A stretch of 35,000 bases of DNA, taken from positions 1-35,000 of the forward strand of contig CAJJBY010000007.1 in assembly GCA_905182545.1 (NCBI GenBank). The letters run 5' to 3'. Both the position numbers and the translations under genes were made by a program. The DNA is from an uncultured Candidatus Puniceispirillum sp. (GTDB lineage Bacteria > Pseudomonadota > Alphaproteobacteria > Puniceispirillales > Puniceispirillaceae). Positions 6,394 to 31,374 of the stretch are shown one piece after another (positions within the stretch are counted from its first letter, which is position 1; each line of letters starts with the position of its first letter). The notes beneath the pieces were generated by a model. The model searched no databases. It was not told the origin of the DNA and was given only the letters and a program-made list of their open reading frames with translations.

Positions 6394-6401
6394 GGCAAGC
6401 A

Positions 6402-8365: not shown

Positions 8366-9682
8366 CTATCGCTGAACCACCGCTTGTAACGGCTTTCCGG
8401 CTAGCGCCAGAACACAGCTTGTCAGAACCCATGCGCCTTTGGCGATGGCTTCATTGCTGGTAAACTCCTCAGGGCAATGGCTTAACCCATCACTGCACGG
8501 AATAAAGATTATGGCCGCCGGTGCAAAGCGTGACAGATGCGCCGTATCATGACCGGCACCGCTTGCCAGTTTAATTGTAGATAACCCATTGACTGCCGCC
8601 GCATCGCTAAGATTTTGCATCAGGCCGCTATCCATTGGCGCAATATCAGCTGCGGCAAGTGGCCTCACATCAACGGCGCAATGGCGGCGTGCCGCGCTAT
8701 CACGGCAAATGGTTTCAAATGCCGCCAGAAAGGCACTTTTCGAATGGGTGCTTGCCGACCGCATATCAAGCGTCATTTCAACCTGGCCAGGAACAATCGC
8801 GGCACCATTTGGAAAAACCTCAATCTTGCCAATCGTTGCCACAAAATGCTGGTTTTCATCACGGGCAATATCGCTTGCTAAGCCATTTATCGCAAGAATG
8901 ATATCCGCCGCCGCGACAAGCGCATCCTGCCGGTCATCCATCGGCGTTGTGCCGCTGTGACCAGCCTGACCCTTCACCGAAATTCCATAGCGGTAAATAC
9001 CCGGAATCGCGGTTACGATCCCGATATCATGACTTTGTATTTCCAATAGTTTTGCCTGTTCAATATGAAGTTCAAGACAGGCCAAAATCTGATCAGCATC
9101 GGATCGCACTTCATCGCAGCCAAGATTGTTACCGCCAATACGGGTGATCTCACTTGCAAGCTGGCGGCCATCTACATCAACCCGACCCAAGATTTCAGGC
9201 GTTAAAAGACCAGCCATATGACGGCTGCCAAGACAAGATGTGCCCCAGACATTTAATTCCTCACCGAGATAATCGACAATTTCCAGATCAAATGGCAGTT
9301 CGATCTGATGCTCATTGAGATAATGCACCACCTCAAGCGCGGCAATGACACCGGCAATACCATCAAACCGGCCACCGGCAGGCACTGTATCAATGTGTGA
9401 TCCAATCAGAACCTTTGCCCGATCTGCCCTGCCCTCATCCGACATTTTCAAATTAGCCCGTTCCAAATTAACGGTGCGGGTGCCAATCAAATTACCACCT
9501 GAATCGATATGACAAACAAGCCCAGCTGCAGCGAAAGCATCGGCAAGCCAGTTTCGGGCCGCATCAAATTCAGGGCTGAAAACAAGCCGCGTATAGGGGC
9601 GATCTGCTTCGGTAAAGCTGGCAAGCTTGTCAATGGCGGCGGCAATACGCGCTGTTTGTGCTATAGCGGGACTGACTTTCAT
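8366..9682 (-). CDS. M20-family amidohydrolase, N-carbamoyl-L-amino-acid hydrolase / allantoate amidohydrolase type
   Basis: From the ATG at 9680-9682 the product has 438 residues. It carries the marks of this M20 branch: GSHIDTVPAGGRFDG with metal-ligand His ~96 and Asp ~107, GEELNVWGTSCLGSRHMAG with the catalytic/metal Glu pair ~141-142, the dimerisation-domain motif GQAGHSGTTPMDDR, and GAGHDTAHLS near the end. Such cytoplasmic enzymes hydrolyse N-carbamoyl amino acids, allantoate or ureidoglycine, releasing ammonia and CO2. The frame extends to a TTG at 9715 and an ATG at 9694, but GGTGG five bases upstream favours 9682. It converges on the peptide transporter operon and diverges from another M20 gene. 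Confidence 0.82.
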   Translation of the reverse strand: MKVSPAIAQTARIAAAIDKLASFTEADRPYTRLVFSPEFDAARNWLADAFAAAGLVCHIDSGGNLIGTRTVNLERANLKMSDEGRADRAKVLIGSHIDTVPAGGRFDGIAGVIAALEVVHYLNEHQIELPFDLEIVDYLGEELNVWGTSCLGSRHMAGLLTPEILGRVDVDGRQLASEITRIGGNNLGCDEVRSDADQILACLELHIEQAKLLEIQSHDIGIVTAIPGIYRYGISVKGQAGHSGTTPMDDRQDALVAAADIILAINGLASDIARDENQHFVATIGKIEVFPNGAAIVPGQVEMTLDMRSASTHSKSAFLAAFETICRDSAARRHCAVDVRPLAAADIAPMDSGLMQNLSDAAAVNGLSTIKLASGAGHDTAHLSRFAPAAIIFIPCSDGLSHCPEEFTSNEAIAKGAWVLTSCVLALAGKPLQAVVQR

Positions 9683-9849
9683 TGAAACCACCATCTGCTG
9701 TTTGACTGCGATCAAAATCAGCGTAGAGTTTAATTTAGAATTTTCAACCAGCCTATGATTATTGGGAGCTATGTTTGTTCTTGAGCATCCGATTTAGTTA
9801 ATGCTGACATAGTTTTCTGACCACGGACAGCGTATTTAGGAGCTTAGAA

Positions 9850-11173: not shown

Positions 11174-12596
11174 CTATTTGGGCTTGGCAATGATTGGTGG
11201 GCTAACCTCCTTTGGAATGGGGCATTGATACGGCGTTTTCGTCTGCCGGCCATTATGAACAGCACGCGCCGCCTCAATCGTTTCTGGCGATTGAATCAAG
11301 GCGCTGGCTGTTGCCGCCATTACTTTTGCTGCATGAATCATGCCCTTATGCGCCGCCGGTGCTTTTCCTTGGGCAACGGTTTGCCATGTATGAAATGGCG
11401 TGCCAACCGCGCAGGTGGCAACACGCGCCTGAACCGTTGGCACCACCCAGCTCACATCGCCAACATCAGTTGACCCCTCACCGCCACTGCTTGTCCGGTC
11501 AAGTGGCGCAACAAAATCGCAAAGCGGCAGATCAGCCGGGGTTTCCCGACCAACACGTTGAAAGCTAGCAGCGATATCATCCTTGGTCAAAGTCTGGCGA
11601 ATTTCATTGGCAAGACCAGAGTCATCAGTCGTCAAACGGCACGGGCCCAAGCTTGTCAAATTCACGCTGCATTATTTCTTCAAGCGGCCGGTTGCCAACC
11701 AGATTGGAAACCCCTGAATAGACTTTTACCTCAACCTCGGTTCCGGTCATTAAGGCCGCGCCATCGGCAATGCTGCGCACGCGTGCAACAAGATCGCGCA
11801 AGGTTGGCAGATCAGCCGCCCGCACTAGCTGGCGAACAGTTGCCTTTGCCTGAACAACATTTGGCGCAACCCCGCCAGCATCAAGATAGGCATAATGCAC
11901 CCGCGCTGAGTCGGGCATATGCTCACGAAGATAATTCACCCCAATATTCATCAGCTCGCATGCATCAAGTGCGCTTCGGCCAAGATGCGGGGCCGCAGCA
12001 GCATGCGCTGCCTTGCCATGAAAGGTGAAATCAATGCGCGAATTGGCAAGCGAATGGCCATGCTGGACAGCGTTAAAGGTTGAAGGGTGCCAAGAAATCG
12101 CCGCATCAACATCATCAAACAATCCATCACGTGCCATATAGGCTTTGGCTGCGCCACCTTCTTCGGCAGGACAGCCATAATAGCGAACCCGTGCCGCAAT
12201 GCCATTTTTGGCAAGCCAGTCCTTGACCGAAGTTGCCGCCAAAAGCGACGCTGCCCCTAACAGATTATGGCCACATCCATGCCCATTGCCGCCCATCTCA
12301 ATCGGGCTATGTTTGGCAACACCGGGTGCCTGGCTAAGCTGGGGAAGCGCGTCAAATTCCCCAAGAATGGCAATTACCGGCCCTTCGGTTCCAGCTTCGC
12401 CCATAACTGCCGTTGGCATTCCACAAATGCCTTCAGTAACATCAAATCCCTCAGCTTTGAGTGCCGCTACATGTTCGGCAACCGATGCAAATTCATTGTA
12501 AAGCGTTTCAGGTGTTTCAAAAACCCGATCGGATAACGCAATAAATTCAGCTCTTTTTGCGTCCACCAATTTCCAGATCTGTTCTTCATTTAACAT
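11174..12596 (-). pseudogene. AbgB-type M20 amidohydrolase, interrupted by one frameshift
   Basis: The main frame begins at ATG 12594-12596 (MLNEEQIWKL) and runs to a TGA at 11625-11627. It has the AbgB features GHGCGHNLLG (residues 105-114) and PAEEGGAAKAYM. The rest of the family continues in another frame to 11174 (SGLANEIRQTL onward, with GKAPAAHKGMIHAAK and a GlyProSer-poor tail). Removing one base near 11628-11635 joins both into about 473 residues, close to the ~480 of E. coli AbgB, which cleaves p-aminobenzoyl-glutamate. The upstream frame extension to 12677 has no family similarity. The break is either a sequencing error or a recent mutation, since the downstream part has not decayed. 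Confidence 0.8.
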
Positions 12597-12715
12597 GTTC
12601 AACTCGTTTCTTCCCAAAAAGGACTCATCAATGAAATGGTGGAAAACTACAACTCTATAAATGAATGTTAAATCCAAAATGACGCTTTAGACAAATGCAA
12701 AAAAACATGAATTAT

Positions 12716-13119: not shown

Positions 13120-14556
13120 CTAATTATAGATTTCACTTGAGTACTTGGTTGCCAGAAATGCGTCCAGACCTTCAATGCCACCTTCATAGCCATAGCCACT
13201 AAATTTCAATCCGCCAAAGGGCGTTTCAACCGAATGGACATGAAGCGAATTGATCGCCAGCATACCACTTTCGATTTCTGATTTTAAAATTCGCACCGTC
13301 TTTGGGCTGTTGGTAAAGGCATAGGCGGCAAGGCCGAATGGCAAGCTATTGGCACGCTCAATTACTTCATCAAGACTATGGAAACTTATCGTTGGTGCGA
13401 TCGGGCCAAAAGGCTCTTCGGTCATGATGCGGGCGGTTTCAGGAACATTGCCAAGAAGCGTTGCCTGATAGAATGACCCCGGGCTTTGAATGCGGCCACC
13501 GCCAACCAATAGCTCAGCCCCCTTTGCCACAGCATCGCTAACAAACCCGTCCATAATGTCGATCCGGCGCTCGGCAACAAGCGGCCCCATGCTAGTGCTA
13601 GCGTCAAGCCCATTGCCCGGATTGACCGCTTCGACATGTTTTTTGAACGCCGCCAGAAATTCATCATGCACGGCCGCTTCAACAAAAAAGCGGGTTGGTG
13701 AAATACATACCTGACCGGCATTGCGGAATTTACCCATCGCGCACAACTGCGCCGCTGCCTCGATATCGGCATCTTTAAACACCATCACCGGCGAATGCCC
13801 GCCAAGCTCCATCGTACAGCGAATCATATTCTTGGCAGCAAGCTGCTGAAGATGAATGCCAACTGGCACACTGCCGGTAAAGCTAAGCTTGCGCGGAATT
13901 GTCGAGCTAAGAAGATGCTCGGAGACATCTGACGGCACCCCAAAGACAATATTCAGCACACCCGCTGGCAAGCCTGCATCAACCAAAGCCACACCAATCG
14001 CAATCGCGGTTGCTGGCGTTTCCTCGCTTGGTTTAATCGTAATCGAACAGCCCGCAGCCAAGGCACCAGCAACTTTGCGCATCACATTTGTTGCCGGAAA
14101 ATTCCAGGCAACAAAGGCCAAGGCTGGCCCAACTGGAACTTTGCGCGCCTCATGCTGCATGCCCGGAAAGCGTGATGGAATAATCCGCCCATAGATGCGT
14201 TTGCCCTCTTCGCCATACCAGCGCAGAAGATCAATCGCGACCTGCATTTCAACTTTTGCTTCGGCAAGCGGTTTGCCCATTTCACGCGTCAGATTGGCGC
14301 TATTGACCTCGAACCGGTCTTCGAGAAGGCCAGCCGCCTTTTCCAGAATGGCCTGCCGGCTCAGCGGTGTCATTGCCCGCCAGTTATTGAAACCATCACG
14401 GCTGCTGTCGAGGGCGCGATCAAGATCTGCTGGGCTGGCATGCGGTACCTGCCCGATTTCGCTCCCGTCAGCCGGACAAATGACCGGCTCATTTTTGCCC
14501 GTACTGCCAAAAACCCATTCACCAGCGATTAGCATTTTCAATTCTGGGTAGGACAT
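13120..14556 (-). CDS. NAD(P)-dependent aldehyde dehydrogenase, succinate-semialdehyde dehydrogenase-like
   Basis: A full-length 478-residue ALDH superfamily enzyme. It has the AWNFP segment (oxyanion Asn), KPSEETP for cofactor binding, FTGSVPVG, general base Glu250 in MELGGHSP, and nucleophile Cys284 in NAGQVCISPTR. The overall pattern is closest to GabD/SSADH-like enzymes, which oxidise short-chain semialdehydes to acids. GGAG eight bases before the ATG lies inside the end of the LysR gene, whose stop is three bases away, so regulator and enzyme are co-transcribed. Its place beside a TauD-type dioxygenase and a TSUP exporter suggests it oxidises the aldehyde made by the dioxygenase, but this is inference. 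Confidence 0.9.
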   Translation of the reverse strand: MSYPELKMLIAGEWVFGSTGKNEPVICPADGSEIGQVPHASPADLDRALDSSRDGFNNWRAMTPLSRQAILEKAAGLLEDRFEVNSANLTREMGKPLAEAKVEMQVAIDLLRWYGEEGKRIYGRIIPSRFPGMQHEARKVPVGPALAFVAWNFPATNVMRKVAGALAAGCSITIKPSEETPATAIAIGVALVDAGLPAGVLNIVFGVPSDVSEHLLSSTIPRKLSFTGSVPVGIHLQQLAAKNMIRCTMELGGHSPVMVFKDADIEAAAQLCAMGKFRNAGQVCISPTRFFVEAAVHDEFLAAFKKHVEAVNPGNGLDASTSMGPLVAERRIDIMDGFVSDAVAKGAELLVGGGRIQSPGSFYQATLLGNVPETARIMTEEPFGPIAPTISFHSLDEVIERANSLPFGLAAYAFTNSPKTVRILKSEIESGMLAINSLHVHSVETPFGGLKFSGYGYEGGIEGLDAFLATKYSSEIYN

Positions 14557-14559
14557 CGG

Positions 14560-15576
14560 TTAGTCTCCATTTCGCATTTCAATGATAAACCTAATATGGA
14601 TGGCAATTCGCCTTGCTTCAATCACAAAGACGGCAGGGCTAGCAATATTTGGCAAATGAGGGTTTCCTAATGATGATGATCTTGATTTTGTTTGACGCAG
14701 TCCCTCTTCGGCTGCCTGAATAAACATCGATGCCAAGGTTGTTCGGGGCCGGTCAGCAGGAAACATAAAAGCAAACTCATAGTGAATTGTCGGCTCCAAT
14801 TGCCGCACAACAACATTGCCACCACTATTCGATTTTGCGGTGAATGGATCAGCAATCGCAATGCCTATTCCATCTTCGACAAACTCATTCACCGCAACAG
14901 CCGTTGTTTCAAATTGCGGTTTATAATCAATTCCCGCCGTCGCAAAAAGCTGGTCAATCCGCATCCGGCCAATCGTGCCTCGCGGCAAGCCAACCAAGGC
15001 CTCACCGGCGAGATCCGACAGGCTTATCTTTTGCTGCTTGGCCAATTCGTGCTGCTTATGCAGAACGCAGACCCCCGGAAAACGGCCAATGTGAACCATA
15101 TGTTCGCTTGGATAGGTAAAGGGCAATGCCACCGCGCATAGGTCAAATTGCTGACCCTCGATCCGCCGTTCTAGCTCGCCCCGGCTGACGACTTCGATAT
15201 TGACCGAAACACGAGCCGCCCTTTCTTTGAAAATACGCAATGCTTTTGGCATGAGGCCACGCGCAAGTGTCGCTGAGGTCAAGACTTGCAGATGACCGTC
15301 TGAAACCCGCCTAATTTCATTTGCCTTGCGCACAAATCTATTCAGGGCTTCGGCTGCCGAATCCGCCTCGGCCAATAGCAATTTTCCTTCAGCAGTTAAT
15401 CTTAACCGGCGCTTGCTTCGATCAAACAGGCTAATACCAAGCTGGCTTTCAAGCGATGCGATGTGACGGCTCATCGCTGATTGGTCAACGCCAAGAATTT
15501 TGGCCGCATCGGTCATGCTGCCAGCGCCAGCAATGACGCGGAATGTCTCGATCCAGCGAAAGGGAGGTTGTTTCAT
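14560..15576 (-). CDS. LysR-family transcriptional regulator
   Basis: The N-terminal winged helix-turn-helix is plain at residues ~18-64 (SMTDAAKILGVDQSAMSRHI, then LGISLFDRSKRRLRLTAEG). It is followed by a periplasmic-binding-like effector domain. At 338 residues it is about 40 longer than most LysR proteins, owing to a C-terminal tail (after ~300) that runs almost to the next ATG and may not be conserved. AGGTGA lies four bases before the ATG. The gene is divergent from the TauD-type dioxygenase across ~108 bases, the classic position for LysR control of the neighbour, and leads into the aldehyde dehydrogenase. Confidence 0.9.
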   Translation of the reverse strand: MKQPPFRWIETFRVIAGAGSMTDAAKILGVDQSAMSRHIASLESQLGISLFDRSKRRLRLTAEGKLLLAEADSAAEALNRFVRKANEIRRVSDGHLQVLTSATLARGLMPKALRIFKERAARVSVNIEVVSRGELERRIEGQQFDLCAVALPFTYPSEHMVHIGRFPGVCVLHKQHELAKQQKISLSDLAGEALVGLPRGTIGRMRIDQLFATAGIDYKPQFETTAVAVNEFVEDGIGIAIADPFTAKSNSGGNVVVRQLEPTIHYEFAFMFPADRPRTTLASMFIQAAEEGLRQTKSRSSSLGNPHLPNIASPAVFVIEARRIAIHIRFIIEMRNGD

Positions 15577-15684
15577 CTTTTCACCTATGTGGTTTAGGCA
15601 TAGTTATACGGTTATTTTTCATTTTTTATCATCATTTATTTCGCCTAGTCTGTTTTTTCTTTAGTGAATCAAAACGAGGTAAAT
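15577..15684. promoter_or_regulatory. divergent LysR / dioxygenase promoter region
   Basis: This 108-base AT-rich gap separates the LysR start (minus) from the dioxygenase start (plus) and must hold both promoters and, by family habit, the LysR operator. I could not pick out a convincing T-N11-A palindrome or a clean -35/-10 pair by eye. The only firm element is GAGG at 15676-15679, the ribosome-binding site of the dioxygenase. Confidence 0.45.
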
Positions 15685-16557
15685 ATGAACGCGAATGACA
15701 GTTTTGAGGTAATTCCATCAGGCGCCGCACTTGGCGCCGATATTGTTGGCTTGGATTTAACGAAAGAAATTGATAGTGCCATTTTTGATCGCGTGATTGA
15801 CGCATGGGATAAGCATTTGGTTCTGCGCTTTCGCAATCAAGACTTAACCGAAGATCAATTTGTGCGGTTTTCACGCTATTTTGGCAGCCTCGACAAGGCG
15901 CCTACACGGCCTGTTAACGGAAGCTATCATCCATCACGCGAAGAAATTGCCGTGATTTCGAATATTGTCCAAGGCGGTGTTCCGATTGGCGGGCTTGGCA
16001 ATTCAGAATTGGTCTGGCATCAGGACATGACCTACAAGGATTTACCACCCAAGGCCAGCATCCTTTATGGACTGACAACCCCAGCCAGTGGCGGCGATAC
16101 GCATTTTTACAATCTCAACCGCGCCTATAAAACATTGCCTGATGCCTTGCGTGAAAAAATCAAAGGCCGATCATGCAAACATGATGCAACGCGCAATTCG
16201 GCCGGACAGTTACGGGCAGGATTTGACGAAAATTATGACAACGAAAGCCGCCCGGGTGCGATTCACCCGTTAATAATCAAACATCATGCCACAGGCAAGG
16301 AATCGCTTTATGTCGGACGTCGTCCCAATGCATGGATTGTCGGGCTGTCGGATGAAGAAAGTGACCAGCTTTTGGATGACATTTGGCAGCATATCGAAAA
16401 TGGACCACATCATTGGGCGCAACAATGGCAGCCAAAGGATATCGTGATTTGGGATAATCGTTACACGCTTCACATGCGCGGCGATCTTGACCCGGCGCAT
16501 GACCGGCTTATGCATCGCACGCAAATCCAAGATGAAGCTGCCCCTGCCGCTGCCTGA
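15685..16557 (+). CDS. TauD/TfdA-family 2-oxoglutarate-dependent dioxygenase
   Basis: A 290-residue non-haem Fe(II) dioxygenase. The iron-binding His-X-Asp is His112-Gln-Asp114 in ELVWHQDMTY, the distal His is His263 in NRYTLHMRGD, and an Arg near 274-278 (DRLMHRTQ) should bind 2-oxoglutarate. Family members hydroxylate sulfonates, aryloxyacetates, betaines or sulfate esters, releasing sulfite or an aldehyde and consuming O2. The frame opens at a GTG (15664), but GAGG five bases before the ATG at 15685 sets the start. Neighbouring LysR, aldehyde dehydrogenase and TSUP exporter genes favour a sulfonate or similar substrate, without proving it. Confidence 0.88.
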   Translation: MNANDSFEVIPSGAALGADIVGLDLTKEIDSAIFDRVIDAWDKHLVLRFRNQDLTEDQFVRFSRYFGSLDKAPTRPVNGSYHPSREEIAVISNIVQGGVPIGGLGNSELVWHQDMTYKDLPPKASILYGLTTPASGGDTHFYNLNRAYKTLPDALREKIKGRSCKHDATRNSAGQLRAGFDENYDNESRPGAIHPLIIKHHATGKESLYVGRRPNAWIVGLSDEESDQLLDDIWQHIENGPHHWAQQWQPKDIVIWDNRYTLHMRGDLDPAHDRLMHRTQIQDEAAPAAA

Positions 16558-16569
16558 CCAAATGCCAAT

Positions 16570-16603
16570 GCCGCAATGATCAAAATTCATTGATGCTTGC
16601 GGC
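16570..16603 (+). terminator. stem-loop after the dioxygenase gene
   Basis: GCCGCAA (16570-16576) pairs with TTGCGGC (16597-16603), and inside it ATCAA pairs with TTGAT across a 2x2 internal mismatch, closing a six-base loop. It begins 12 bases after the stop codon. A T-run (CTTTTTATT) follows about 16 bases later rather than immediately, so termination may be weak, or the stem may stabilise mRNA. Confidence 0.45.
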
Positions 16604-16698
16604 GCTTGCCACAAACGCTTTTTATTATTTCTTGCTGGTGGACACGAACGGTCCTACCAGCATTCCCGCCGCTATCTTTAACCTAGGGCGTATTTGAT

Positions 16699-17430
16699 TT
16701 GGAGCTTATCGATATTCTTCTGATTTGCCTTATTGCCTTTGTTACCGCAGGCATCACGGGCATCACCGGTGTTGCGGGCGGGCTGTTACCAGCGGTTTTC
16801 CTGACGCCGATCATTGGCATCACCTCGGTCATGCCAGTCTTGGCGATCATGCTTTTATTTGGCAGCGTGTCACGCGCCTGGATCAACCGTGCAGATTTTC
16901 ATCGCGATGCATTTCGCCGTATTGCAATACCAGCAGTGCCAATGGTTGTGCTTGGCAGCATTTTTTATGCCCAGTTAGAGCCAAAGATGATTGCCTTGAT
17001 GCTGGGAAGCGTTGTTCTCGCATCCATTCCCATTCGCCGCATTGCCAAATCCTATGAAATCAAAACATCGCGCAGCATGTTAAGCTGTGTTGGCGGCGTT
17101 TTCGGATTTCTGGCCGGATCATCAACTGGCCCTGGCCTGCTGCTTGTTCCTTTTATGCTTGGCTATGGTTTATCGCGGACCAGCTTTGTTGCCACGCTTG
17201 CGGTCATTGCAGCGTTGACCCATGTTGCACGCGCCGCGACATTCGGCAGCATCGGCCTGATCGGGCAGGAGATTTTAATCCTCGGGCTGATTGGTGGCGC
17301 AGCGACAATACCCGGCAATATACTTGGCAAAATAATACTCAAGAAAATGACCAACCATAACCATGAAATTTTGGTTGATTTGATGGCGTTTGGTGGTGGG
17401 GTTAATTTCCTTTATCTGGCCTTGGCCTGA
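16699..17430 (+). CDS. TSUP-family transporter (TauE/SafE sulfite/sulfoacetate exporter family)
   Basis: A 243-residue, very hydrophobic protein with about eight membrane spans and the two-half TSUP layout. The first half has GITGITGVAGGLLPAVFL and the second GFLAGSSTGPGLLLVPFML, the glycine-rich loops typical of the family. TSUP proteins export sulfite, sulfoacetate or other organic anions, or import some of them. The start is TTG at 16699 with AGGG about ten bases upstream; no ATG lies near. It follows the TauD-type dioxygenase on the same strand, matching a role in exporting sulfite from desulfonation. Substrate is inferred from context only. Confidence 0.83.
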   Translation: MELIDILLICLIAFVTAGITGITGVAGGLLPAVFLTPIIGITSVMPVLAIMLLFGSVSRAWINRADFHRDAFRRIAIPAVPMVVLGSIFYAQLEPKMIALMLGSVVLASIPIRRIAKSYEIKTSRSMLSCVGGVFGFLAGSSTGPGLLLVPFMLGYGLSRTSFVATLAVIAALTHVARAATFGSIGLIGQEILILGLIGGAATIPGNILGKIILKKMTNHNHEILVDLMAFGGGVNFLYLALA

Positions 17431-18637: not shown

Positions 18638-20493
18638 TTAGGTAAGGCTTTTCAATTTCTGTTCAATCTCTTGGAAGGCTTGCTGGCGATTCCACATTTT
18701 CTGATAGACACCATTTTGTAACAGCAAATTCTGATGCGTACCACGCTCGGTAATCTGCCCCTTATCCAGAACAATGATTTCATCAGCCGTTACGATTGTT
18801 GACAGGCGATGCGCAATGATAATGGCGGTTCGGTCTTTTAGAACAAGGTCCAATGCCTGATTGATATCCTGTTCAGTTTTTGTATCAAGCGATGAAGTGG
18901 CCTCGTCCAAAATCAAAATAGGTGGGGCTTTTAAAATGGCTCTTGCAATGGCAACGCGCTGTTTTTCACCACCAGACAACTTTAGCCCGCGTTCGCCAAC
19001 TTCGGTTTCAAGCCCGCTTGGCAGCGACTGGATAAAGCCATCAATCTTGGCACCCACTGCCGCGTTCCAGACCGCTTCCTTGCCAGCATCCAAATGCCCA
19101 TAATGAATGTTATAGCCAATCGTGTCATTGAACAGAACCGTATCTTGCGGCACCACGCCAATGGCCGCGCGAAGGCTTATCGCCTTAACCGACCGGATAT
19201 CATGGCCATCAATAGAAATGCTGCCTGCGGTGACATCATAAAACCGACATAGCAATCGCGAAATGGTCGATTTGCCAGCCCCCGATTGCCCAACAATGGC
19301 AACGGTTTTTCCAGCTGGTACATCAAAGCTGATGCCGCGCAAAATTGGTCGGTCATCCGCATAATGAAAATGCACATCGTCAAAACAGATTGACCCTGAC
19401 GGCACAGTTAAATCACGCGCATTCGACGAGTCAATAATTTCGGCAGGCGTTTCCAGCAAACCAAACAGAACCTCAATATCGGTTAGTGATTGCCGAATTT
19501 CACGATAGACGCCGCCAATAAAGGCAAGAGGCTGCGATAGCTGGATCAAAAACAAATGAATCAGAACAAAATCACCAATCGTCTGTTCACCACGAACAAC
19601 CGCATTTGCCGACAAAAGCAGTGAGGCCATCATGCCAAGCGCAGAAAATTGCAGCTTGCCCAAAATTCAGCCAGCCAAGCGACGTCGATGATTTGATTCC
19701 GGCTTTTTCATATTGGGCAATTGCATGATCAAACCGCGCCAATTCGATTTTTTCATTGGTGAAATATTTGACCGTTTCATAATTCAGCAACGAATCAACC
19801 GCGCGCGTATTCGCCTCCGTATCGGATCGGTTCATTTCACGGCGAATAATGGTTCGCCAATTGCTGGTTTTCACCGTGAAGACGCTATAGCTAATGACCG
19901 TAATCGCAATCACCAATACATAGGCCGCGCCAAAATTATAAAAGAAAATCCCCGTATAAAGAGCAAATTCAAAAATCACCGGCAATGTTGATAAGACCGT
20001 GTAGCGAACAACACTTTCGATGCCCTTGGTGCCGCGTTCGATCACGCGCGACAGGCCCCCGGTTCGCCGCTGCAAATGAAACCGCAATGACAATTGATGC
20101 ATATGGCTAAAGGCACGAAGCGCAAGCTGGCGAACGGCATGCTGGCTGACACGGGCAAATAACGCATCGCGAAGCTGGTTAAAGGCAATGCTTAGAATGC
20201 GCGCCGCAACAAAACCCAGAATCAGCATCAGGGGGGTTAGTAAAAACAACGGCAAAAAGGGTAAATCTAAGCTCATTGCCAGCAAGGCTGTCAGTAACAT
20301 ATTTGAAAAAGAACGGCACCGTGGCTGTCACTAATTTGGCAGCAATCAGCAGCAGCACCGCAACAAACACCAGACGTTTGAGGCTTGGCTTGTCATGTGG
20401 CCAGATATAGGGCCATAGCTTTACAACAGTCCCAATGACCGATTTTTCCGCCATCTGACTTTGGGGTGTTGTTGTTTTGCGTTTGCTATTCAT
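18638..20493 (-). pseudogene. Atm1/HMT1-type ABC exporter (fused membrane and ATPase domains), two frameshifts
   Basis: Three overlapping frames together make one ~618-residue half-transporter of the Atm1/ABCB7 class. Part 1 (20493 to ~20232) has TVVKLWPYIWP and VPFFFKYVTDSL. Part 2 (to ~19645) carries the remaining spans with LRDALFARVSQ and LLNYETVKYFTNE, the latter diagnostic for Atm1. Part 3 (to 18638) has GQSGAGKS, LSGGEKQR, ILILDEATSSLD and the HRLST switch. The breaks fit a C-run (GGGGGG at 20231-20236, plus strand) with one base too many, and an AAAA run at 19645-19648 one base short. Intact relatives export glutathione-linked iron-sulfur precursors or heavy metals from the cytoplasm. 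Confidence 0.85.
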
Positions 20494-22279: not shown

Positions 22280-23866
22280 ATGAAAAAAGTATTAGCATCT
22301 ATATTGATGGCAGGATCGCTCTTGCTTGGCGGTGCTGCGGCTAACGCCGACAAATCGGGCGGTACGCTCTCGTTCCTCGTTCAGCCTGAGCCCCCAACCT
22401 TGGCATCATATATATCAACATCGGGACCGATTGGCCTTGTGATGCCAAAAGTCTATGAAGGGCTTTTCGACTATAATAACGACGGCACAATGGTACCGAT
22501 TCTAGCTGAAAGCTATTCGGCCAGCGCTGATGGTAAAACCGTCACTTTCAATCTTCGCAAAGGTGTGAAATGGCATGATGGCAAGCCTTTCACCTCAGCT
22601 GATGTGCAGTTTACTGTCATGGACGTGCTGAAAAAAGTGCACCCCCGCGGGCCAAACTCGTTCCGCGAAGTAACAAGCATTGATACGCCTAATGATCACA
22701 CGGCTATTTTTAACTTAAAGAAGCCCGCGCCTTATATGATGCGCTCATTCGCCGCCTATGAGTCTCCAATGGTCCCCAAGCATCTTTTAGAAGGCAAAGA
22801 CATCAAATCTGCACCATTGGCAAACAACCCTGTAGGTACTGGCCCGTTTAAATTTGTTGAGTGGAAAAAAGGTCAATATATCCGCCTAGATAAGAACAAA
22901 GACTATTGGCAAAAGGGTTTACCGCATCTTGACCGGATTGTTGGTCGCTTCATTCCTGATGCGTCAACACGGACGGCTGCGATGGAAAATGGCGAAGTTC
23001 TGTATGCTGCATATAACGCCATTCCAAATATTGATGCTATTCGCCTGAAAGAGCGTGATGACATTGACGTAACCACTGAGGGTTATTCAATGATCAATCC
23101 GATGGCGCTGATCGAATTCAACACTAAAGAAGGCCCGTTTGTAGATCCGGCCATTCGTCGCGCCATTTCGGTTGCGATTGACCGCCGGTTTATGATCGAC
23201 ACAATTTTCTTTGGCTACGGAAAGCCCGCCACAAGCGCATTGAGCAGTAACTTCAAGGCAACAAACCTGCATGCTGAAATGCCAAATTACCCTGAAAAGG
23301 GCGATAAGGCTGCGGCAAACGCAATCCTTGATAAAGCTGGTTACAAGCGTGACGGCGACGGCGTTCGCTTGAAAGCTGTTCTAGACCTGATCCCTTATGG
23401 TGAAGACTGGCGCCGTGCTGGTGAATATCTAAAGCAGGCACTTGGTGATATCGGTATCCAGTTAGAGCTGCGTTATGAAGATGTACCAACATGGTTGAAG
23501 CGTGTTTATCACCGCTATGACTTCCAGATGAATGTGAACTATTTCTACCAGCTGCCAGATCCGGTTCTGGGTGTTCATCGTCATTATGGTACTGACCAGA
23601 TCCGTAAAGGCACTCATTTTGTGAACTCATCACGCTACAGCAATCCAAAATTAGATGCGCTGCTAGATTCGGGCGCTGGTGAACCAGATGCTGCAAAGCG
23701 GACAGCTGCCTATAAAGAGATCCAGCAGATTTTGGCAGATGACATGCCAGTTGTGAATTTGTTCGAGCTTGAATTCTTGGTCGTTTATAACACCAAGCTG
23801 AAAGGCGCTTACGGCTCTGCAATGGGTGCCTATGGCTCATTCAGAGAAGCCTATCTTGACGACTAA
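22280..23866 (+). CDS. peptide/solute ABC transporter substrate-binding protein (SBP family 5), second system
   Basis: A 528-residue periplasmic protein with a Sec signal peptide (MKKVLAS, Leu/Gly core, cleavage after ANA at residue 23). It has the SBP_bac_5 landmarks LRKGVKWHDGKPF, NPVGTGPFKFVEW and IRRAISVAIDRRF. It is clearly diverged from the other binding protein of this window, so the two systems probably carry different ligands. GGGAG stands upstream of the ATG. It heads an operon of two permeases, a fused double ATPase and an amidase, which hints at an amide-containing solute. Confidence 0.9.
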   Translation: MKKVLASILMAGSLLLGGAAANADKSGGTLSFLVQPEPPTLASYISTSGPIGLVMPKVYEGLFDYNNDGTMVPILAESYSASADGKTVTFNLRKGVKWHDGKPFTSADVQFTVMDVLKKVHPRGPNSFREVTSIDTPNDHTAIFNLKKPAPYMMRSFAAYESPMVPKHLLEGKDIKSAPLANNPVGTGPFKFVEWKKGQYIRLDKNKDYWQKGLPHLDRIVGRFIPDASTRTAAMENGEVLYAAYNAIPNIDAIRLKERDDIDVTTEGYSMINPMALIEFNTKEGPFVDPAIRRAISVAIDRRFMIDTIFFGYGKPATSALSSNFKATNLHAEMPNYPEKGDKAAANAILDKAGYKRDGDGVRLKAVLDLIPYGEDWRRAGEYLKQALGDIGIQLELRYEDVPTWLKRVYHRYDFQMNVNYFYQLPDPVLGVHRHYGTDQIRKGTHFVNSSRYSNPKLDALLDSGAGEPDAAKRTAAYKEIQQILADDMPVVNLFELEFLVVYNTKLKGAYGSAMGAYGSFREAYLDD

Positions 23867-23967: not shown

Positions 23968-24954
23968 ATGACAAGATCCACGAAAATTTTCAAATATGTT
24001 GGCAAACGGTTATTGCAAGGAATACCAATCATTCTTGCCATCGTTATCATCAACTTCTTTCTTCTAAATCTGGCTGAAGGCGATGCGGTTGACGTCTTGG
24101 CTGGCGAGGCAGGCTCGGCTACCCCCGAATATATGGAGCAGTTGCGCAAGAAATTTGGTTTGGATCAGCCTTTACCTGTCCAGCTGATGGTTTATCTGAA
24201 AAATGTTCTGAGCCTTGATCTTGGATATTCTTTTAGACATGACATGCCCGTCAATGAATTGATCTATGACCGATTTGCTGCCACCGGTTTGCTGATGGCC
24301 AGCACGATTATTTTGGCTGTTGGCTTTGGCATTTTGCTGGGGCTTCTGGCTGCAGTGCGCCTGAACACATGGAAAGATGCCGTTATTACCGTATTTGCCC
24401 TGATCACATATGCAACGCCACTATTCTGGGTGGGGTTAATGATGATCGTTGTCTTTTCGCTAAATCTTGGATGGTTTCCCACAAGCGGCATGACCAATGT
24501 TGCCGCCTTTTATGAAGGCTGGGACTATGTTGTGGATGTGTCTCGCCATCTCGTTTTACCAACGATTACATTGTCGCTTTTCTATCTGGCGTTATATACG
24601 CGAATGATGCGGGCTTCGATGCTAGAGCAATATGGGCAGGATTACGTTGTGACGGCAAGGGCGAAGGGTCTGACCGAAAGGCGCATCACCTATGTCCATG
24701 TTTTGCGTAACGCGCTTTTACCTGTTGTAACGATGGCTGGCGTTCAGGTTGGCGCATTGATTGGTGGGTCGGTGATTGTCGAGTCCGTCTTTGCCTGGCC
24801 CGGACTGGGAATGCTGGCGTTTGAATCACTATTTGCGCGCGATCTAAACCTGCTTCTTGGCATTTTCCTTTTGTCGTCAATGCTCGTTGTCGTGGTGAAT
24901 TTGATTGTCGACATCATTTACTGCTTCCTCGATCCACGAATTGAGGTTAATTGA
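23968..24954 (+). CDS. peptide ABC transporter permease, DppB type, second system
   Basis: A 328-residue permease of the DppB/OppB family. The first span is near residues 13-35, followed by a periplasmic stretch with KKFGLDQPLPVQ, then five spans with the EAA loop QDYVVTARAKGLTERR and the late VESVFAWPGLG motif. Its TGA ends one base before the next ATG. The 101-base gap to the binding-protein gene contains the hairpin. Confidence 0.9.
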   Translation: MTRSTKIFKYVGKRLLQGIPIILAIVIINFFLLNLAEGDAVDVLAGEAGSATPEYMEQLRKKFGLDQPLPVQLMVYLKNVLSLDLGYSFRHDMPVNELIYDRFAATGLLMASTIILAVGFGILLGLLAAVRLNTWKDAVITVFALITYATPLFWVGLMMIVVFSLNLGWFPTSGMTNVAAFYEGWDYVVDVSRHLVLPTITLSLFYLALYTRMMRASMLEQYGQDYVVTARAKGLTERRITYVHVLRNALLPVVTMAGVQVGALIGGSVIVESVFAWPGLGMLAFESLFARDLNLLLGIFLLSSMLVVVVNLIVDIIYCFLDPRIEVN

Positions 24955-24955
24955 C

Positions 24956-25789
24956 ATGGGAAATTTTTGGTCACGCTACAAGCGAAATCATGCTGCTGTT
25001 TTTGGATTATTTGTTATTGTGTTGATTATTGTGATGGCGATAACAGCAAGTTTGCTTTACCCAGAAGACCCGTTCCGTTTGGTTGGCAAGCCACTATCAA
25101 AACCACTTACCAATGGCTTTCTACTTGGCAGTGATTCGCTTGGACGTGATGTAGCTTCAGGCATTGTCCATGGTGCTAAAACATCATTGCTGATCGGATT
25201 TGTTGCCACGCTTGTTTCGGTGTTTATTGGGATTTTCTTTGGTGCCTTTGCCGGTTATTTCGGTGGCCTTATTGATGATATTCTGATGCGTGTCACCGAA
25301 ATTTTCCAGACAATCCCATCCTTTATTTTTGCCATTTTGCTGGTGGCAATTATGAAGCCGTCAATAAGCAGTATTGTTATTGCGATTGCGGTTGTGTCAT
25401 GGCCAGGCGTTGCGAGGCTTGTGAGAGGCGAATTCTTGGCAGTCAAGAATCGTGAATTTGTTCAAGCATGCCACACGCTGGGGATGAGTGACCTTCGCAT
25501 CATGCTGTGGGAAATCCTGCCAAATTGCCTTAGCCCAATTATTGTTGTTGGCTCTTTGATGGTGGCAACCGCCATTCTGATTGAAAGTGGGCTGGCCTTT
25601 CTTGGCCTTGGTGATCCAAATATCATGAGCTGGGGTTTTCTGATTGGAGCGGGCCGCACCATGTTGAGATCGGCTTGGTGGGTTTGCACATTTCCCGGTG
25701 TTGCTATCTTGATAACGGTGCTGGCAATTAACCTGATTGGTGAGGGGCTGAATGACGCGCTGAACCCTCGTTTGAAAGAACGCCAATGA
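24956..25789 (+). CDS. peptide ABC transporter permease, DppC type, second system
   Basis: A 277-residue DppC/OppC-type permease with LGSDSLGRDVASGI and the EAA loop EFVQACHTLGMSDLR. The frame is open from 24905, but that start would lie deep inside the previous gene. The ATG at 24956 has GAGG at 24943-24946 with a nine-base spacer and gives the normal N-terminus MGNFWSRYKRNHAA. It overlaps the ATPase gene by four bases (ATGA). Confidence 0.9.
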   Translation: MGNFWSRYKRNHAAVFGLFVIVLIIVMAITASLLYPEDPFRLVGKPLSKPLTNGFLLGSDSLGRDVASGIVHGAKTSLLIGFVATLVSVFIGIFFGAFAGYFGGLIDDILMRVTEIFQTIPSFIFAILLVAIMKPSISSIVIAIAVVSWPGVARLVRGEFLAVKNREFVQACHTLGMSDLRIMLWEILPNCLSPIIVVGSLMVATAILIESGLAFLGLGDPNIMSWGFLIGAGRTMLRSAWWVCTFPGVAILITVLAINLIGEGLNDALNPRLKERQ

Positions 25790-27417
25790 CAAAAAAGCTT
25801 CTCTCGATAAGCGACCTTTCTATTTTGCTGCCAACTGGTGCTGACCGGCAGTATGCAGTTCAGGACATCGACCTTGAACTGAATACGGGTGAGACCGTTT
25901 GTGTTGTTGGTGAAAGTGGGTCAGGAAAATCACTGACGGCGCGTGCTGTTATGGGTTTGTTGCCAGCGCCACATGTGCGTGTTGGCAAGGGTGAAATTAT
26001 CTTTGGTGCTGAAGATCTAACCAAAGTCACCTATGAACGCCTTCGTGAATTGCGTGGCAGTGAAATTTCGATGATTTTCCAAGAACCCATGACTGCCTTA
26101 AATCCAGTCATGACAATTGGCGATCAAATTGATGAGATTTTTCGTTATCATGTATCAATGTCAGCCAAAGAACGGGCTGAAAAGGCCTTAAGCCTGTTGG
26201 TTGATGTTAATTTGCCTGACCCCGAAAAGATCATTGATGCCTATCCACATGAGCTTTCTGGTGGTCAAAGACAGCGCTCAATGATCGCTATGGCTCTTGC
26301 ACTTGGCCCTAAAATTCTGATTGCTGATGAGCCAACAACGGCGCTTGATGTGACAACACAAGCGCAGATTCTCAAATTAATCAGCGATATGCAAAAACGG
26401 CTTAATACCGGCGTATTATTCATAACCCACGATTTCGGTGTCGTCGCGGATATAGCCGATCGCGTTATTGTCATGCAGCATGGCAAAATTGTTGAAACCG
26501 GAACCACCAAGCAAGTTCTGCAAAAACCAAAACATCCCTATACTAAATCCCTGATTGCTGCCATCCCACGGCTAAAACCACGCAAAGCAAGATCAAGGGC
26601 GGCTGAAGTCGTGTTGAAAACCGAAGGGGTTTGCAAATCATTTGGTGGCGGCAAAAGCTTTTTTGGATTTGGAAAACCGAACCGCGAGGTCAAAGCCGTT
26701 CAAAATGTGCAAATCGAATTGCGCCGCGGCGAAACCCTTGGTGTGGTCGGCGAGAGTGGGTCAGGCAAATCCACATTGGCACGTTGTGTGATCCGACTCA
26801 TTGATAGTGATGAAGGCCAGATCAAACTTGGCGATGTTGATATCACCAAATTAAGTCGCAAGGACTTACGCCCATACAGAAAGCGCATACAGATGGTGTT
26901 TCAAGACCCGTTTGCGTCATTGAATCCACGCATCCGGGTTGGCGATATCATTTCGCAAGGCCCTATTCTACAGGGCGAAGATAAGGAAGATGCGTCCAAA
27001 CGCGCCTATGAACTTCTTGATATTGTTGGCCTTGATCGCCGATCATTTGATCGCTTCCCGCATGAATTTTCCGGTGGACAGCGCCAGCGCATCGGTATTG
27101 CAAGAGCACTATCCCTAAAGCCAGATATCTTGGTTGCCGATGAGCCAGTTTCAGCATTGGATGTTTCAATTCAAGCACAGATTCTTGAACTGCTGGATGA
27201 CATTCGTGAGCAAATGGATTTATCCATGCTGTTCATCACGCATGATTTACGTGTCGCAGCGCAGGTTTGTGATTATGTTGCCGTCATGCAATATGGAAAA
27301 ATAGTTGAAATGGGGCCAACAGCTAAATTATTCAAAGATCCAAAAGACGCTTATACAAAATCGCTTCTCGCTGCGGTTCCGGGAAAAGACTGGCATTTTG
27401 GAAAATTGAAGCCATAG
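25786..27417 (+). CDS. fused double ABC ATPase (DppD-DppF in one chain, YejF/GsiA-like)
   Basis: A 543-residue protein with two complete ABC cassettes. The first has GESGSGKS at residues ~42-49, signature LSGGQRQR, and Walker [13 protein letters not shown]. After a basic linker around 265-275 (RKARSRAAE), the second has GESGSGKS near 321-328, FSGGQRQR and ILVADEPVSALD. It powers the permease pair encoded just upstream. Unlike the ATPases of the first operon, neither half carries the cysteine-rich oligo_HPY tail, so it lacks the possible iron-sulfur site seen there. The amidase gene follows after 68 bases. Confidence 0.92.
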   Translation: MTKKLLSISDLSILLPTGADRQYAVQDIDLELNTGETVCVVGESGSGKSLTARAVMGLLPAPHVRVGKGEIIFGAEDLTKVTYERLRELRGSEISMIFQEPMTALNPVMTIGDQIDEIFRYHVSMSAKERAEKALSLLVDVNLPDPEKIIDAYPHELSGGQRQRSMIAMALALGPKILIADEPTTALDVTTQAQILKLISDMQKRLNTGVLFITHDFGVVADIADRVIVMQHGKIVETGTTKQVLQKPKHPYTKSLIAAIPRLKPRKARSRAAEVVLKTEGVCKSFGGGKSFFGFGKPNREVKAVQNVQIELRRGETLGVVGESGSGKSTLARCVIRLIDSDEGQIKLGDVDITKLSRKDLRPYRKRIQMVFQDPFASLNPRIRVGDIISQGPILQGEDKEDASKRAYELLDIVGLDRRSFDRFPHEFSGGQRQRIGIARALSLKPDILVADEPVSALDVSIQAQILELLDDIREQMDLSMLFITHDLRVAAQVCDYVAVMQYGKIVEMGPTAKLFKDPKDAYTKSLLAAVPGKDWHFGKLKP

Positions 27418-27485
27418 ACAAGTATGCACCAATAGCCTATTCTTCGCAGCCTGACCCTTACCATTATGCATTTGAGATATTTGTG

Positions 27486-28887
27486 ATGTCGAATCCCACA
27501 ATCCTTGATCCAGTGAACACAATTCATGGGCTTTATCGCAGCTACCAGAACAACAGCACCAAGCCAAGCGTTGTTGTTCAGGCCTATCTGGATGAAATAG
27601 AACGGCTAAACCCCCGTCTTGGCGCCTATCAAAACACATGGGCTGATACAGCACTGGAAATGGCGGCGGCCGCAGATAAGGCATTGGCTGCGGGATTTGC
27701 TGCAGGGCCCTTCTACGGGATGCCTTATGCCTTGAAAGATATTTTCCACGTCAGAGGGTAAGGTAACAACCTGCGGGTCGGCGGCAATGCTTGATAATAT
27801 TGCCAGCACCACCTCAACAATGGTTCAGCGGCTAAAAGCAGCTGGCGGAATTATTCTTGGTAAAACCAAAACGGTTGAATGCGCCTTTGGCGGTTGGGGA
27901 ACCAATCAGAAAATGGGAACCCCGATGAACCCGTGGGATTTGGAAACGCATCGGATTCCGGGCGGGTCATCATCGGGAACGGCGGTGGCGGTGGCGTCGG
28001 GCATGGCGCCATGCGGCATGGGTAGTGATACAGGTGGGTCAATTCGTTTGCCAGCTGCCTATTGTGGGCTTGTTGGCCTAAAGGTGACGGCGGGGCGCTT
28101 GCCCTTGCATGGGATCATGCCGCTATCACAATCGCTTGATACACCCGGGCCAATTGCCCAGACCGTGCTTGACTGCCTAATCATGTTTGATGTGCTAGAT
28201 GGCCGCGAGGGATGGAAAATCGCCCAGGATATGGATAATGGCGCTGGTTTATATGCGGTATTAAATAAGGGCGTCTCTGGATTGCGCCTTGGCAGCCTTG
28301 CCGATAGCGAGCGTAAGCAATGTTCAGAAGATATGCTTGAATCCTATGACATGGCTTTGGATCGTTTGCGAGCTATGGGGGCTGAAATTATACCATTTAA
28401 AAACCTTATATCCTACGGCGATATGGCTGATGATAACGGAATGATTACAGCGGTTGAGGCCTTTCATAATCATGGCCGTTTCTATAAAAACCCTGATTTG
28501 CCAATGGATGAAGATGTGCGCACCCGAATGCTGTCGGGAGAGCATTATCACGCCCATGATTATTTTCGTGTTTTGCAACAGCGCAAAGAAACCATGGCCG
28601 CCTTTGGTGATGCGATACGCGGTTTTGATGCGCTTGTGATGCCGAGTAGCACAAGCACTGCCCCGGCATTGACCAATGTCGATCAGGCGGTATCACCAGG
28701 CTATTTCACCCGACCTTTTAATTTTCTGGAAATGTGCGGCCTGTCGGTGCCAATTAACCTTGCAAGTGACGGCATGCCAACAAGCCTACAAATTGTTGGT
28801 AAAGCACATGATGAAGCGATGTGTCTCCGTGTTGGCGCTGCGCTTGAACAGGATTTACCGCCAATCGGCCGGCCAGATTTATCCTAA
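27486..28887 (+). pseudogene. amidase (amidase-signature family), interrupted by one frameshift
   Basis: The frame beginning ATGTCGAAT at 27486 runs through GMPYALKD, which has catalytic Lys84, and stops at TAA 27759-27761. The same protein continues one frame over (KVTTCGSAAML onward) to 28887, including GGSSSGTAVAVASG (cis-Ser), GSDTGGSIRLPAAYCG (nucleophile Ser) and the normal C-terminus. Deleting one base around 27754-27762 restores about 466 residues, the usual length for this GatA-like family. Such enzymes hydrolyse amides to an acid plus ammonia or an amine in the cytoplasm. It ends the second peptide operon and overlaps the end of the convergent DMFase-like gene by four bases. Confidence 0.85.
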
Positions 28888-31007
28888 TACCCAACAAATT
28901 TGCGAACGACATTTCTGAGTAACTTTGAAACATTATTATCGCAATTGTTCCAAGGCAAAGACCCGCAAAAGGTGATTGATCCAACTGCAAAGACCTGCCC
29001 ACCTGTATGTGTTTTAAAATAGACCATATCAGCGCGTTTCACATCAGCTTCAGGGCCGCCTGACAGATTTGTTAGATGCGTTAACATTTCTTCTGGAACA
29101 AGAATAAACCGGTTATCCTCGTCATAAGATTGCGCAAGAATGGTAATATCCTCACCGTCGTCCAGCTTTTCATCACGCCGATCAAGTTCAAATCCGGCCG
29201 CGCCATGTCCGCTAAAGCCAAAATCACCAAGTAAATCGTCATTTATGCCGTCAAACACCCAGTCCATATTTTTATCGTAGCAAACGCGTTTGTAGGGCAT
29301 GCCAACAAAATTTCCCTGTGCGGTAAAGCCAATACCAACAAGCTGCTGCGGGGGGCGTCCATTGCGCCGCCAAAGGCCACCATAACTGCCGTCAAAGGCA
29401 TTATAATATTCCCCCGGTTCAGATGCCCATGCGCGCAACCCATCTTCAGACCGCCTGATTTCAAGCAATGCCGAATCTTCAGGGTGGCGCACAATCCGCC
29501 AGTAAAATCCATTGCCGCCAAGATAAATAAGCCCACCGCCGTTTTCCCGATAATCTTTCAACGCATCAAGTGTTTCGCTGGTGTGATATTCAGGATGGCT
29601 TCCGGTTACAACAGCCTTATAGCCTGAAATTGCGGCCACCCCGTCACGGTCAAGCTCATCATCGGTAATAATGTCATAATCAATGTTCTGATTATGCAGC
29701 CATGCAATTAGATGACTATCAGCCTGAAAATGGCGAAGGCCGGAACAGGTTGCTTCACCAAAGGTCAGATAGCCAGGCCTAAGATTAAAAAGAACGCGTT
29801 TATGCGATGCGTGGCAAATGCCCGATCCGTCAGTGTGATTATTGTAGGTCGACAGCCCATAATGCCGATATTGAGACGGGTTATTTGGATAAGCCTTCCA
29901 TGCGCTGATCTTTTCAAGCCATGATGGCGCGAAATCAGGACGGGCATGATTGCCATAGATCGTATAGGTAAAAGTTGAAACCAGAACACATAAATCTGCG
30001 CGGCGCTTGCCAAGCTGTGGGCAAACAAAAAACGGCATAGCATCATAATGCCCTTCAGCCTCAATGCGCATAATATATATGCCCGAAGGCATATCGTCGG
30101 GAATCACCAATTCAAAATCACTGTCCCACTCGAAATCATAAATATCATCATCGTGAAACGATATTGCAGCATAATGATCTGGCTTATGTCGCCAGCAAAA
30201 TTCGGTTGCATCCCACCTGCGACCCGTAACCCCCCTTGTTGGGGCATTCCTCAACAAAAGATCAGGCCCGGCATTGGCCTTTACCGATAACGAAGATATG
30301 GCTTGGGCGAAATCCCACTTCGCAATCAAATCACCATCAGCCAGAATTTCGGGCGCCTCGATTTTTCCATTAAAGCAACAAGGGGCGTCACCAAAACCGG
30401 CCGCGATACGAACAGGGGCTTTCACTGAAAAGGGAAACATCTGCGCAATGTCAAATTCTTTATGACTGGCTTTGGCAATTTCAATACCGGCTTTTGACAT
30501 CGTCGTAGATTTTACATCAAACGCTACCACACCCGATGCCAACACCTTGAACTCAAGGCTGTGCCAGTGGTTGCACTTTATTGCTGCGGATGTTGAAACA
30601 GACATGCCATCAGCTAATTTCGCGGTGATTATACCCTGCGGATCAAGGGTGATTGAGACACTCCCCCACGCCAATAATGTTTGATCGACAGCCACAAGAG
30701 CCGTCGGCATGAACCATAATCTTATCTCAAGATCGGCATTGATATCGGCCTGCAGATCAATTGTGCTTTGCGCGAATGAACCGGGAGTAAACCCCTGATA
30801 ACGGGATACAAAAGACGATGGTTTAAAATAGATGCTGGCATCATTTTCAATAATACCAAGCCCGTCCGGATTCGGATCTGCCGAAACTGAACGATGCAAT
30901 GTTGCTTTAAACTCTTCGCGCGCATGGCTGGACACGAAAAATGTGACAGTCTCACCAGGCCTTGCTGACAATTTATCTGAATATCCGGCTATAAATACAT
31001 CTTGCAT
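28884..31007 (-). CDS. N,N-dimethylformamidase large (beta) subunit-like protein
   Basis: A 707-residue protein resembling the DMFase large subunit. The N-terminal third is beta-rich, with a LamG/concanavalin-like segment around residues 60-190. The C-terminal domain contains STFTYTIYGNHARPD, HYGLSTYNNHTDG, LFNLRPGYLTFGE and VTGSHPEYHT. In the characterised enzyme an unusual iron site uses two Tyr and one Glu; the best candidates here are Tyr348 or Tyr351, Tyr388 and Glu473. That enzyme splits dimethylformamide into formate and dimethylamine. No small-subunit gene is seen nearby, and the true substrate may be another amide. AGGA precedes both a GTG (31011-31013) and the ATG at 31005-31007. 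Confidence 0.85.
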   Translation of the reverse strand: MQDVFIAGYSDKLSARPGETVTFFVSSHAREEFKATLHRSVSADPNPDGLGIIENDASIYFKPSSFVSRYQGFTPGSFAQSTIDLQADINADLEIRLWFMPTALVAVDQTLLAWGSVSITLDPQGIITAKLADGMSVSTSAAIKCNHWHSLEFKVLASGVVAFDVKSTTMSKAGIEIAKASHKEFDIAQMFPFSVKAPVRIAAGFGDAPCCFNGKIEAPEILADGDLIAKWDFAQAISSLSVKANAGPDLLLRNAPTRGVTGRRWDATEFCWRHKPDHYAAISFHDDDIYDFEWDSDFELVIPDDMPSGIYIMRIEAEGHYDAMPFFVCPQLGKRRADLCVLVSTFTYTIYGNHARPDFAPSWLEKISAWKAYPNNPSQYRHYGLSTYNNHTDGSGICHASHKRVLFNLRPGYLTFGEATCSGLRHFQADSHLIAWLHNQNIDYDIITDDELDRDGVAAISGYKAVVTGSHPEYHTSETLDALKDYRENGGGLIYLGGNGFYWRIVRHPEDSALLEIRRSEDGLRAWASEPGEYYNAFDGSYGGLWRRNGRPPQQLVGIGFTAQGNFVGMPYKRVCYDKNMDWVFDGINDDLLGDFGFSGHGAAGFELDRRDEKLDDGEDITILAQSYDEDNRFILVPEEMLTHLTNLSGGPEADVKRADMVYFKTHTGGQVFAVGSITFCGSLPWNNCDNNVSKLLRNVVRKFVGY

Positions 31008-31013: not shown

Positions 31014-31374
31014 TCAATCCTGTTTGATTGAAAAATACTAAATTTGGCTAAACGGCTGTCAGTGCCTGTCTATAATGAAACATGCACAGCGTAAATGATC
31101 AAGCCAAGCGACTAGTCAAAACAGATATGATGAATTGCTTGCTAGGTTTATCACAAGACCGAACGAGCTTAACCAACTAGGTCAAAGCAAGAGCGTCAAT
31201 TTTGGCTTGCACCAACGCTCATGAAGCGACCAAGCAGGACACTAAAGTTTTAAGACCCATCATTGCGGGAAATTGGAGTATCTGCTTTCATAGTATCAAT
31301 ATCCACACCGTCATGTTGCACCTGCTTGAATCATGTGCACACATTGACTGAAACACGTGAATAAGGAACTTAAA
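31014..31374. other. 361-base intergenic region between divergent DMFase-like and Nei-like genes
   Basis: No gene or RNA was recognised here. It should hold promoters in both directions. A short inverted repeat, TCAATC (31014-31019) and GATTGA (31026-31031), overlaps the leader of the DMFase-like gene. Near the right end lies the ribosome-binding site of the glycosylase. The sequence shows no strong -35/-10 pair that I would trust. Confidence 0.4.
31363..31367 (+). promoter_or_regulatory. ribosome-binding site that fixes a TTG start
   Basis: AAGGA lies seven bases before TTG 31375-31377, an ideal spacing. The upstream GTG at 31357 has no such site. This, with the need for proline directly after the initiator methionine, decides the start of the glycosylase. 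Confidence 0.8.

Follow-up and report, generated by a model that had tools for sequence, protein, structure and literature searches.

A DMFA2-type amidohydrolase gene of a SAR116 bacterium, its one-subunit branch and its possible substrates

The DMFA2-type gene and its surroundings

The window, that is, the whole 35,000-nucleotide stretch of DNA analysed here, comes from a host genome of 2.0 Mb in 13 contigs (98.4% complete, 4.5% contamination). It contains a gene for a 707-aa protein (Table 1), which is the only DMFA2-type copy in that genome. The protein matched the Pfam family PF20254 (DMFA2_C, E 4.5e-92), and no NCBIfam family at E 0.001. Its best match among the sequences of solved structures was an N-acetyl-(R)-beta-phenylalanine acylase (523 bits), followed by the large subunit of dimethylformamidase (DMFase, 6lvb; 336 bits). 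The PF20254 match and the 6lvb match indicate that the frame is not a chance one. Among the 80 top-scoring of 570 confirmed relatives, the nearest named records belong to SAR116/Puniceispirillum.

Table 1. Positions in the window of the DMFA2-type gene, its conserved neighbours and selected codons
Feature	Coordinates	Strand	Remarks
Single-subunit DMFA2-type amidohydrolase gene	28884..31007	-	707 aa + stop; ATG 31005-31007, TAG 28884-28886
Catalytic domain, Pfam PF20254 DMFA2_C	28935..30239	-	Residues 257-691
Y351 codon	29955..29957	-	Equivalent of DMFase iron ligand Y399; Y in 183/183 rows
Y388 codon	29844..29846	-	Equivalent of DMFase iron ligand Y440; 183/183 rows
H471 codon	29595..29597	-	Equivalent of DMFase essential H519; 183/183 rows
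E473 codon	29589..29591	-	Equivalent of DMFase iron ligand E521; 183/183 rows
R356 codon	29940..29942	-	Fixed in one-subunit branch: 118/118 vs 3/63
N389 codon	29841..29843	-	Adjoins ligand Y388; 115/118 vs 0/63
R425-H426 codons	29730..29735	-	113/118 each vs 3/63 and 0/63
Convergent amidase (PF01425)	27483..28887	+	Conserved neighbour; split by frameshift between 27761 and 27787 in present assembly
Fused two-domain ABC transporter ATPase	25786..27417	+	Conserved neighbour
Two ABC transporter permeases	23968..25789	+	Conserved neighbours
ABC substrate-binding protein, family 5 (peptide/opine/nickel type)	22280..23866	+	Conserved neighbour

The sequence-only reading had described a large-type protein that stands alone, with a convergent gene downstream and a non-coding gap upstream, and this arrangement was borne out. 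No small subunit was detected at the locus, the convergent amidase overlaps the DMFA2-type stop codon by four bases, and the upstream gap (31014-31356) has no frame of at least 80 aa. The gene beyond the gap, starting at 31357 on the + strand, encodes a formamidopyrimidine-DNA glycosylase. Farther away, an aldehyde dehydrogenase, a LysR regulator, a TauD-family dioxygenase and a TauE/SafE-type exporter lie in a row (13120-17430), which is possibly a sulfonate-related set.

The two frames of the split amidase align at about 95% with residues 1-92 and 102-467 of an unbroken relative (locus L015); in the 17 other subclade loci that have it, the amidase is 460-491 aa long. An MsbA-type ABC exporter (18638-20300, - strand) is also split, into two overlapping frames. 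Because both genes are split within the same 35 kb, assembly indels are suggested in this region. Since the amidase is frameshifted in the host genome, there may be an error in the assembly, or the pathway may be in decay. The two split genes could be taken as signs that the DMFA2-type gene is itself a non-functional remnant, which is very improbable: its 707 codons are intact, the ligands are kept, and the catalytic domain is 98% identical to that of the nearest relative among the tree rows. Uninterrupted frames of 706-737 aa are also carried by 10 of the 11 genus genomes with a match (in the remaining one, the frame is a fragment at the end of a contig), and the several breaks within 35 kb look like assembly errors.

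Metal ligands and predicted fold

Residue equivalences were taken from an alignment to the DMFase of Paracoccus aminophilus, in which the published positions carry the expected residues. Tyr348/351, Tyr388 and Glu473 had been put forward as candidate iron ligands from the sequence. Y351, Y388 and E473 indeed match the DMFase ligands Y399, Y440 and E521, so that two Tyr and one Glu are conserved; Y348 fell away, as it pairs with a non-ligand tyrosine (Y396). In the published account of DMFase, both iron and activity are lost in the Y440A and E521A variants, and H519A has no activity (PMC7686228). Equivalents of the 2-Tyr-1-Glu set of iron ligands and of the essential His of DMFase are thus present in the 707-aa protein. 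In addition, N499 aligns with DMFase N547, and T643 is the counterpart of the DMFase pocket residue F693.

An AlphaFold2 model of the protein (pLDDT 88.7; below 50 at residues 172-178 and 536-544) was compared with solved structures by Foldseek and VIA-align. The closest structure was the acylase 8huy (Z 54.0, 2.5 Å, 687 residues), and DMFase 6lvb was also similar (Z 46.2, 2.6 Å, 672 residues). VIA-align matches below Z 20 (laminin-G, pentraxin and glycosidase domains) were set aside as single-domain likeness only. The single chain is predicted to hold three domains: Ig-like, pentraxin/laminin-G-like and alpha/beta catalytic. A mononuclear metal, iron by analogy, would be held by Y351, Y388 and E473, and H471 would aid catalysis.

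A shorter PF20254 subfamily (loci L185-L191 and L193; 8 rows, used for rooting) keeps the equivalents of Y351, H471 and E473, with no Tyr at the Y388 position in that alignment. Because the Y388 equivalent is not kept, its metal site may differ.

The one-subunit branch and the search for a small subunit

A total of 218 frames matched the large-subunit profile. After removal of 24 duplicates and of frames scoring below 250 bits or shorter than 430 aa, 182 remained, and a segment of the acylase was added to give 183 rows; two of these were too short for the tree, which was reconstructed from 181 catalytic domains. The unrooted tree splits into 118 and 63 rows with support of 100. A tree of 70 rows under a mixture model gave the same split, again with support of 100 and with 32 thinned rows on the one-subunit side. 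The supposed one-subunit branch is therefore one side of a fully supported split in two trees. In both, the 707-aa protein groups with the N-acetyl-(R)-beta-phenylalanine acylase, apart from the two-subunit enzymes; in the larger tree, the two proteins fall in different subclades of their branch. This side also includes records titled SAR202 (Chloroflexota), Candidatus Poribacteria, Gemmatimonadetes and the cyanobacterium Mastigocoleus.

The two branches differ in the presence of a small-subunit gene. In the 118-row branch, none of the 110 rows with the upstream side in view has a small subunit, a biased count because its loci include the 80 top-scoring of 570 relatives, which were chosen by nearness to the query; the other rows are seven cut by contig ends and the acylase. 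The 63-row branch holds the true DMFase. It has 47 rows with a small subunit, 13 without a detected one and 3 that are cut; three of the 13 exceptions are arranged in tandem with a second large gene, for which a small subunit is present. The one-subunit branch thus exists, with this gene among its members, but it was already known through the solved acylase. What is new is the breadth of the branch, its four marker residues (below), the transporter setting and the repeated adjacency to CuyA genes.

The lack of a small subunit was examined with the DmfA1 sequence of P. aminophilus and with a profile built from eight small-subunit sequences encoded upstream of large-subunit genes. Each of the eight members was recovered in a leave-one-out test (E 4.7e-16 or better), and 6/6 positive-control records were matched. 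Among the solved structures, its only matches were the small subunit of DMFase and, at E 0.87, a designed protein. In the host genome (98% complete), neither the single sequence nor the profile found a small subunit. The sequence-only reading would have been contradicted by a small-subunit gene elsewhere in the genome or by ligands that are not conserved, and neither was seen. With the profile, no small subunit was detected in 60 of the 61 genomes of the host's family. The sole match was in genome G054, which carries a two-subunit homologue (locus L210) instead.

A sample of 289 genomes of the class gives a fair count of how often the small subunit is lacking. The large family was found in 55 genomes (E 0.001) and the small subunit in 27 (E 1e-4), and comparison of the two lists showed that all 27 are among the 55. 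Thus, in 28 of the 55 no small subunit was detected; in about eight of the 28 the large gene is present only in a short or diverged form, and in the rest it is mostly full-length. By a hand count, 18 of the 106 places in the class sample were left out of the fetched loci, and these are mostly fragments or the short form.

Insertions that might replace the small subunit were also sought, and only one branch-specific segment of three residues was found (thresholds of 70% vs 30% filled). From the sequences, nothing obvious appears to replace the small subunit. The protein may still have a partner from a different family, or one whose sequence has diverged beyond the reach of the profile. Such a hidden partner has to be considered because the DMFase large subunit expressed alone has no activity (PMC7686228).

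Fourteen positions mark the one-subunit branch, including R356, N389, R425 and H426; these four were defined as branch marks in this analysis and are not a published definition. R356 lies five residues past the ligand Y351. At position 389, the other branch has D in 54/63 rows. In the alignment, the acylase sequence has the equivalents of all four residues. They point to an acidic group on the substrate, suggesting a role in which R356, N389, R425 and H426 would recognise this group, as the acylase must do with the carboxylate of N-acetyl-beta-phenylalanine.

The acylase (PDB 8HUY, 8I59 and 8I5A) therefore resembles the 707-aa protein in tree branch, three-domain fold, ligands and the four branch residues, and its entries are also without a DMFase-type small subunit. 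The two proteins differ in that they share only about 40% identity and belong to different subclades. A literature search found no paper on the N-acetyl-(R)-beta-phenylalanine acylase. The Paracoccus DMFase (DmfA1/DmfA2, PDB 6LVB and others) shares the large-subunit fold, the Y/Y/E ligands, the essential His and the equivalent of N547; however, it sits in the other branch and needs a 15 kDa small subunit (PMC7686228), which was not found here. With fold and ligands identical in kind, the protein might still be a DMFase acting on DMF or formamides, its small subunit lost or undetected. The different branch, the empty profile searches in the host and in 60/61 family genomes, and T643 in place of the pocket residue F693 make this highly unlikely. 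The 707-aa protein is not to be filed as a DMFase. More generally, proteins annotated as "N,N-dimethylformamidase beta subunit" form two well-separated branches. Since no small subunit was detected in 28 of the 55 genomes that carry the family in the class sample, this name is often misleading, and the solvent is an unlikely substrate.

Transporters, CuyA and the possible substrate

In the nearest (inner) subclade of the tree, all 31 loci, a non-independent set with many close relatives from SAR116, have either an ABC transporter and/or the amidase (20 loci) or a TRAP transporter (11 loci), never both. In one of the 20, which lies on a short contig, the amidase is visible but neither a permease nor a binding protein is. 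Where the ABC/amidase set occurs in SAR116 loci, the amidase-transporter run lies tail to tail with the DMFA2-type gene, as in the window. The ABC type was also found near 11 of the 30 acylase-subclade loci, vs 3 of the 58 loci of the other branch, many of which have shorter flanks. Nine further loci of Rhodobacteraceae were inspected outside the tree, and six of them fit the ABC/amidase or the TRAP setting. The three that fit poorly have only an amidase farther away (L230), a convergent part of a TRAP transporter (L231), or both kinds at a distance (L232). None of the solved structures related to the binding proteins and to the amidase names a substrate.

Taken together, these analyses suggest, with a probability of roughly 0.7, that the protein works as a single chain, a metal amidohydrolase which removes the acyl group from an anionic N-acyl compound, perhaps a sulfonate, after its import. 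The substrate would be taken up by the neighbouring ABC transporter, or by the TRAP transporter in some relatives, and its amide bond would be hydrolysed without a small subunit. A small amino acid or amino sulfonate in N-acylated form is the probable substrate; a natural amide, which had already been proposed, fits the gene neighbourhood and the name of the acylase. The metal identity, the catalysis and the recognition of the acidic group are what we infer. A similar system might be that of Ruegeria pomeroyi for N-acetyltaurine (transporter naaA-C, amidohydrolase naaS), in which, by its annotation, an amide hydrolase adjoins genes for a binding protein, two permeases and ATPases (PMC4334477).

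Two specific forms of the amidohydrolase reading were considered. In the first, the enzyme would be an N-acyl-beta-amino-acid acylase that acts on carboxylates only. The acylase is the closest solved relative and has R356, N389, R425 and H426 in common with the 707-aa protein. Class III aminotransferases, a type that handles beta-amino acids, lie near 6/30 acylase-subclade loci; however, such a gene was found near only 1 of the 31 loci of the protein's own, distinct subclade. This form is possible but rather doubtful.

The second form concerns the sulfo-lyase CuyA. CuyA genes (473-529 bits, curated cut-off 450) lie no more than 710 bases from a DMFA2-type gene in five lineages: SAR116 genus g1 (L016), SAR116 genus g4 (L207-L209), Planktomarina (L048), Rhodobacteraceae (L224) and a deltaproteobacterial MAG (L037). 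The gap is 312 bases in L224 and 50-707 bases in the others. By a rough estimate, the number of such adjacencies expected by chance is 0.03 in SAR116 and about 0.005 in Rhodobacteraceae (6 gene copies). CuyA was found near none of the 58 loci of the other branch. Among the genomes of the host's family, a CuyA match (E 1e-100) was found in 18 of the 19 with PF20254 (one truncated and under the cut-off) vs 13 of the 42 without it. The Fisher value for this co-occurrence (3e-6) ignores kinship and genome completeness, both of which confound it, and G054, which is among the 19, has the two-subunit form. The enzyme might act on N-acyl cysteate, or on the N-acyl form of a closely related amino sulfonate, and CuyA would split the product that is released. 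The R. pomeroyi genes, an ABC transporter and an amidohydrolase annotated for N-acetyltaurine (PMC4334477), also speak for this form.

Several observations argue against it. The host's own CuyA gene is on another contig (C6) and is not adjacent. Only 5 of the 31 inner-subclade loci have CuyA nearby, as do 0/30 acylase-subclade loci. In 248 genomes of Rhodobacteraceae, the branch profile matched in 19 and CuyA in 76; four of the eight best-scoring genomes have CuyA, adjacent in one, and four lack it. The link was noticed post hoc, and a literature search on N-acyl cysteate and N-acyl cysteinolate gave a single paper, on fish bile salts. The CuyA link is repeated but not general, and release of cysteate by this enzyme is unlikely on present evidence. 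An unrecognised marine route, with import of N-acyl cysteate, N-acyl cysteinolate or a similar compound, deacylation by a single-chain, metal-dependent N-acyl-sulfonate amidohydrolase of the DMFase fold, and cleavage of cysteate by CuyA with release of sulfite, is put forward as an equally tentative idea. Both the conserved transporter pairing and the CuyA link can be tested, and they may lead to an organic nitrogen (perhaps sulfur) compound of the sea on which SAR116 and Roseobacter bacteria draw.

The window also contains a second operon of a peptide-type ABC transporter (2845-8362, by eye). It is followed on the opposite strand by an ErtE-like N-carbamyl-amino-acid hydrolase (8366-9715; 478.5 bits, under the cut-off of 520). 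An M20 amidohydrolase (11174-12677, - strand) ends early, covering profile positions 4-297 of 366, and an overlapping frame without a family match may, by eye, hold its end.
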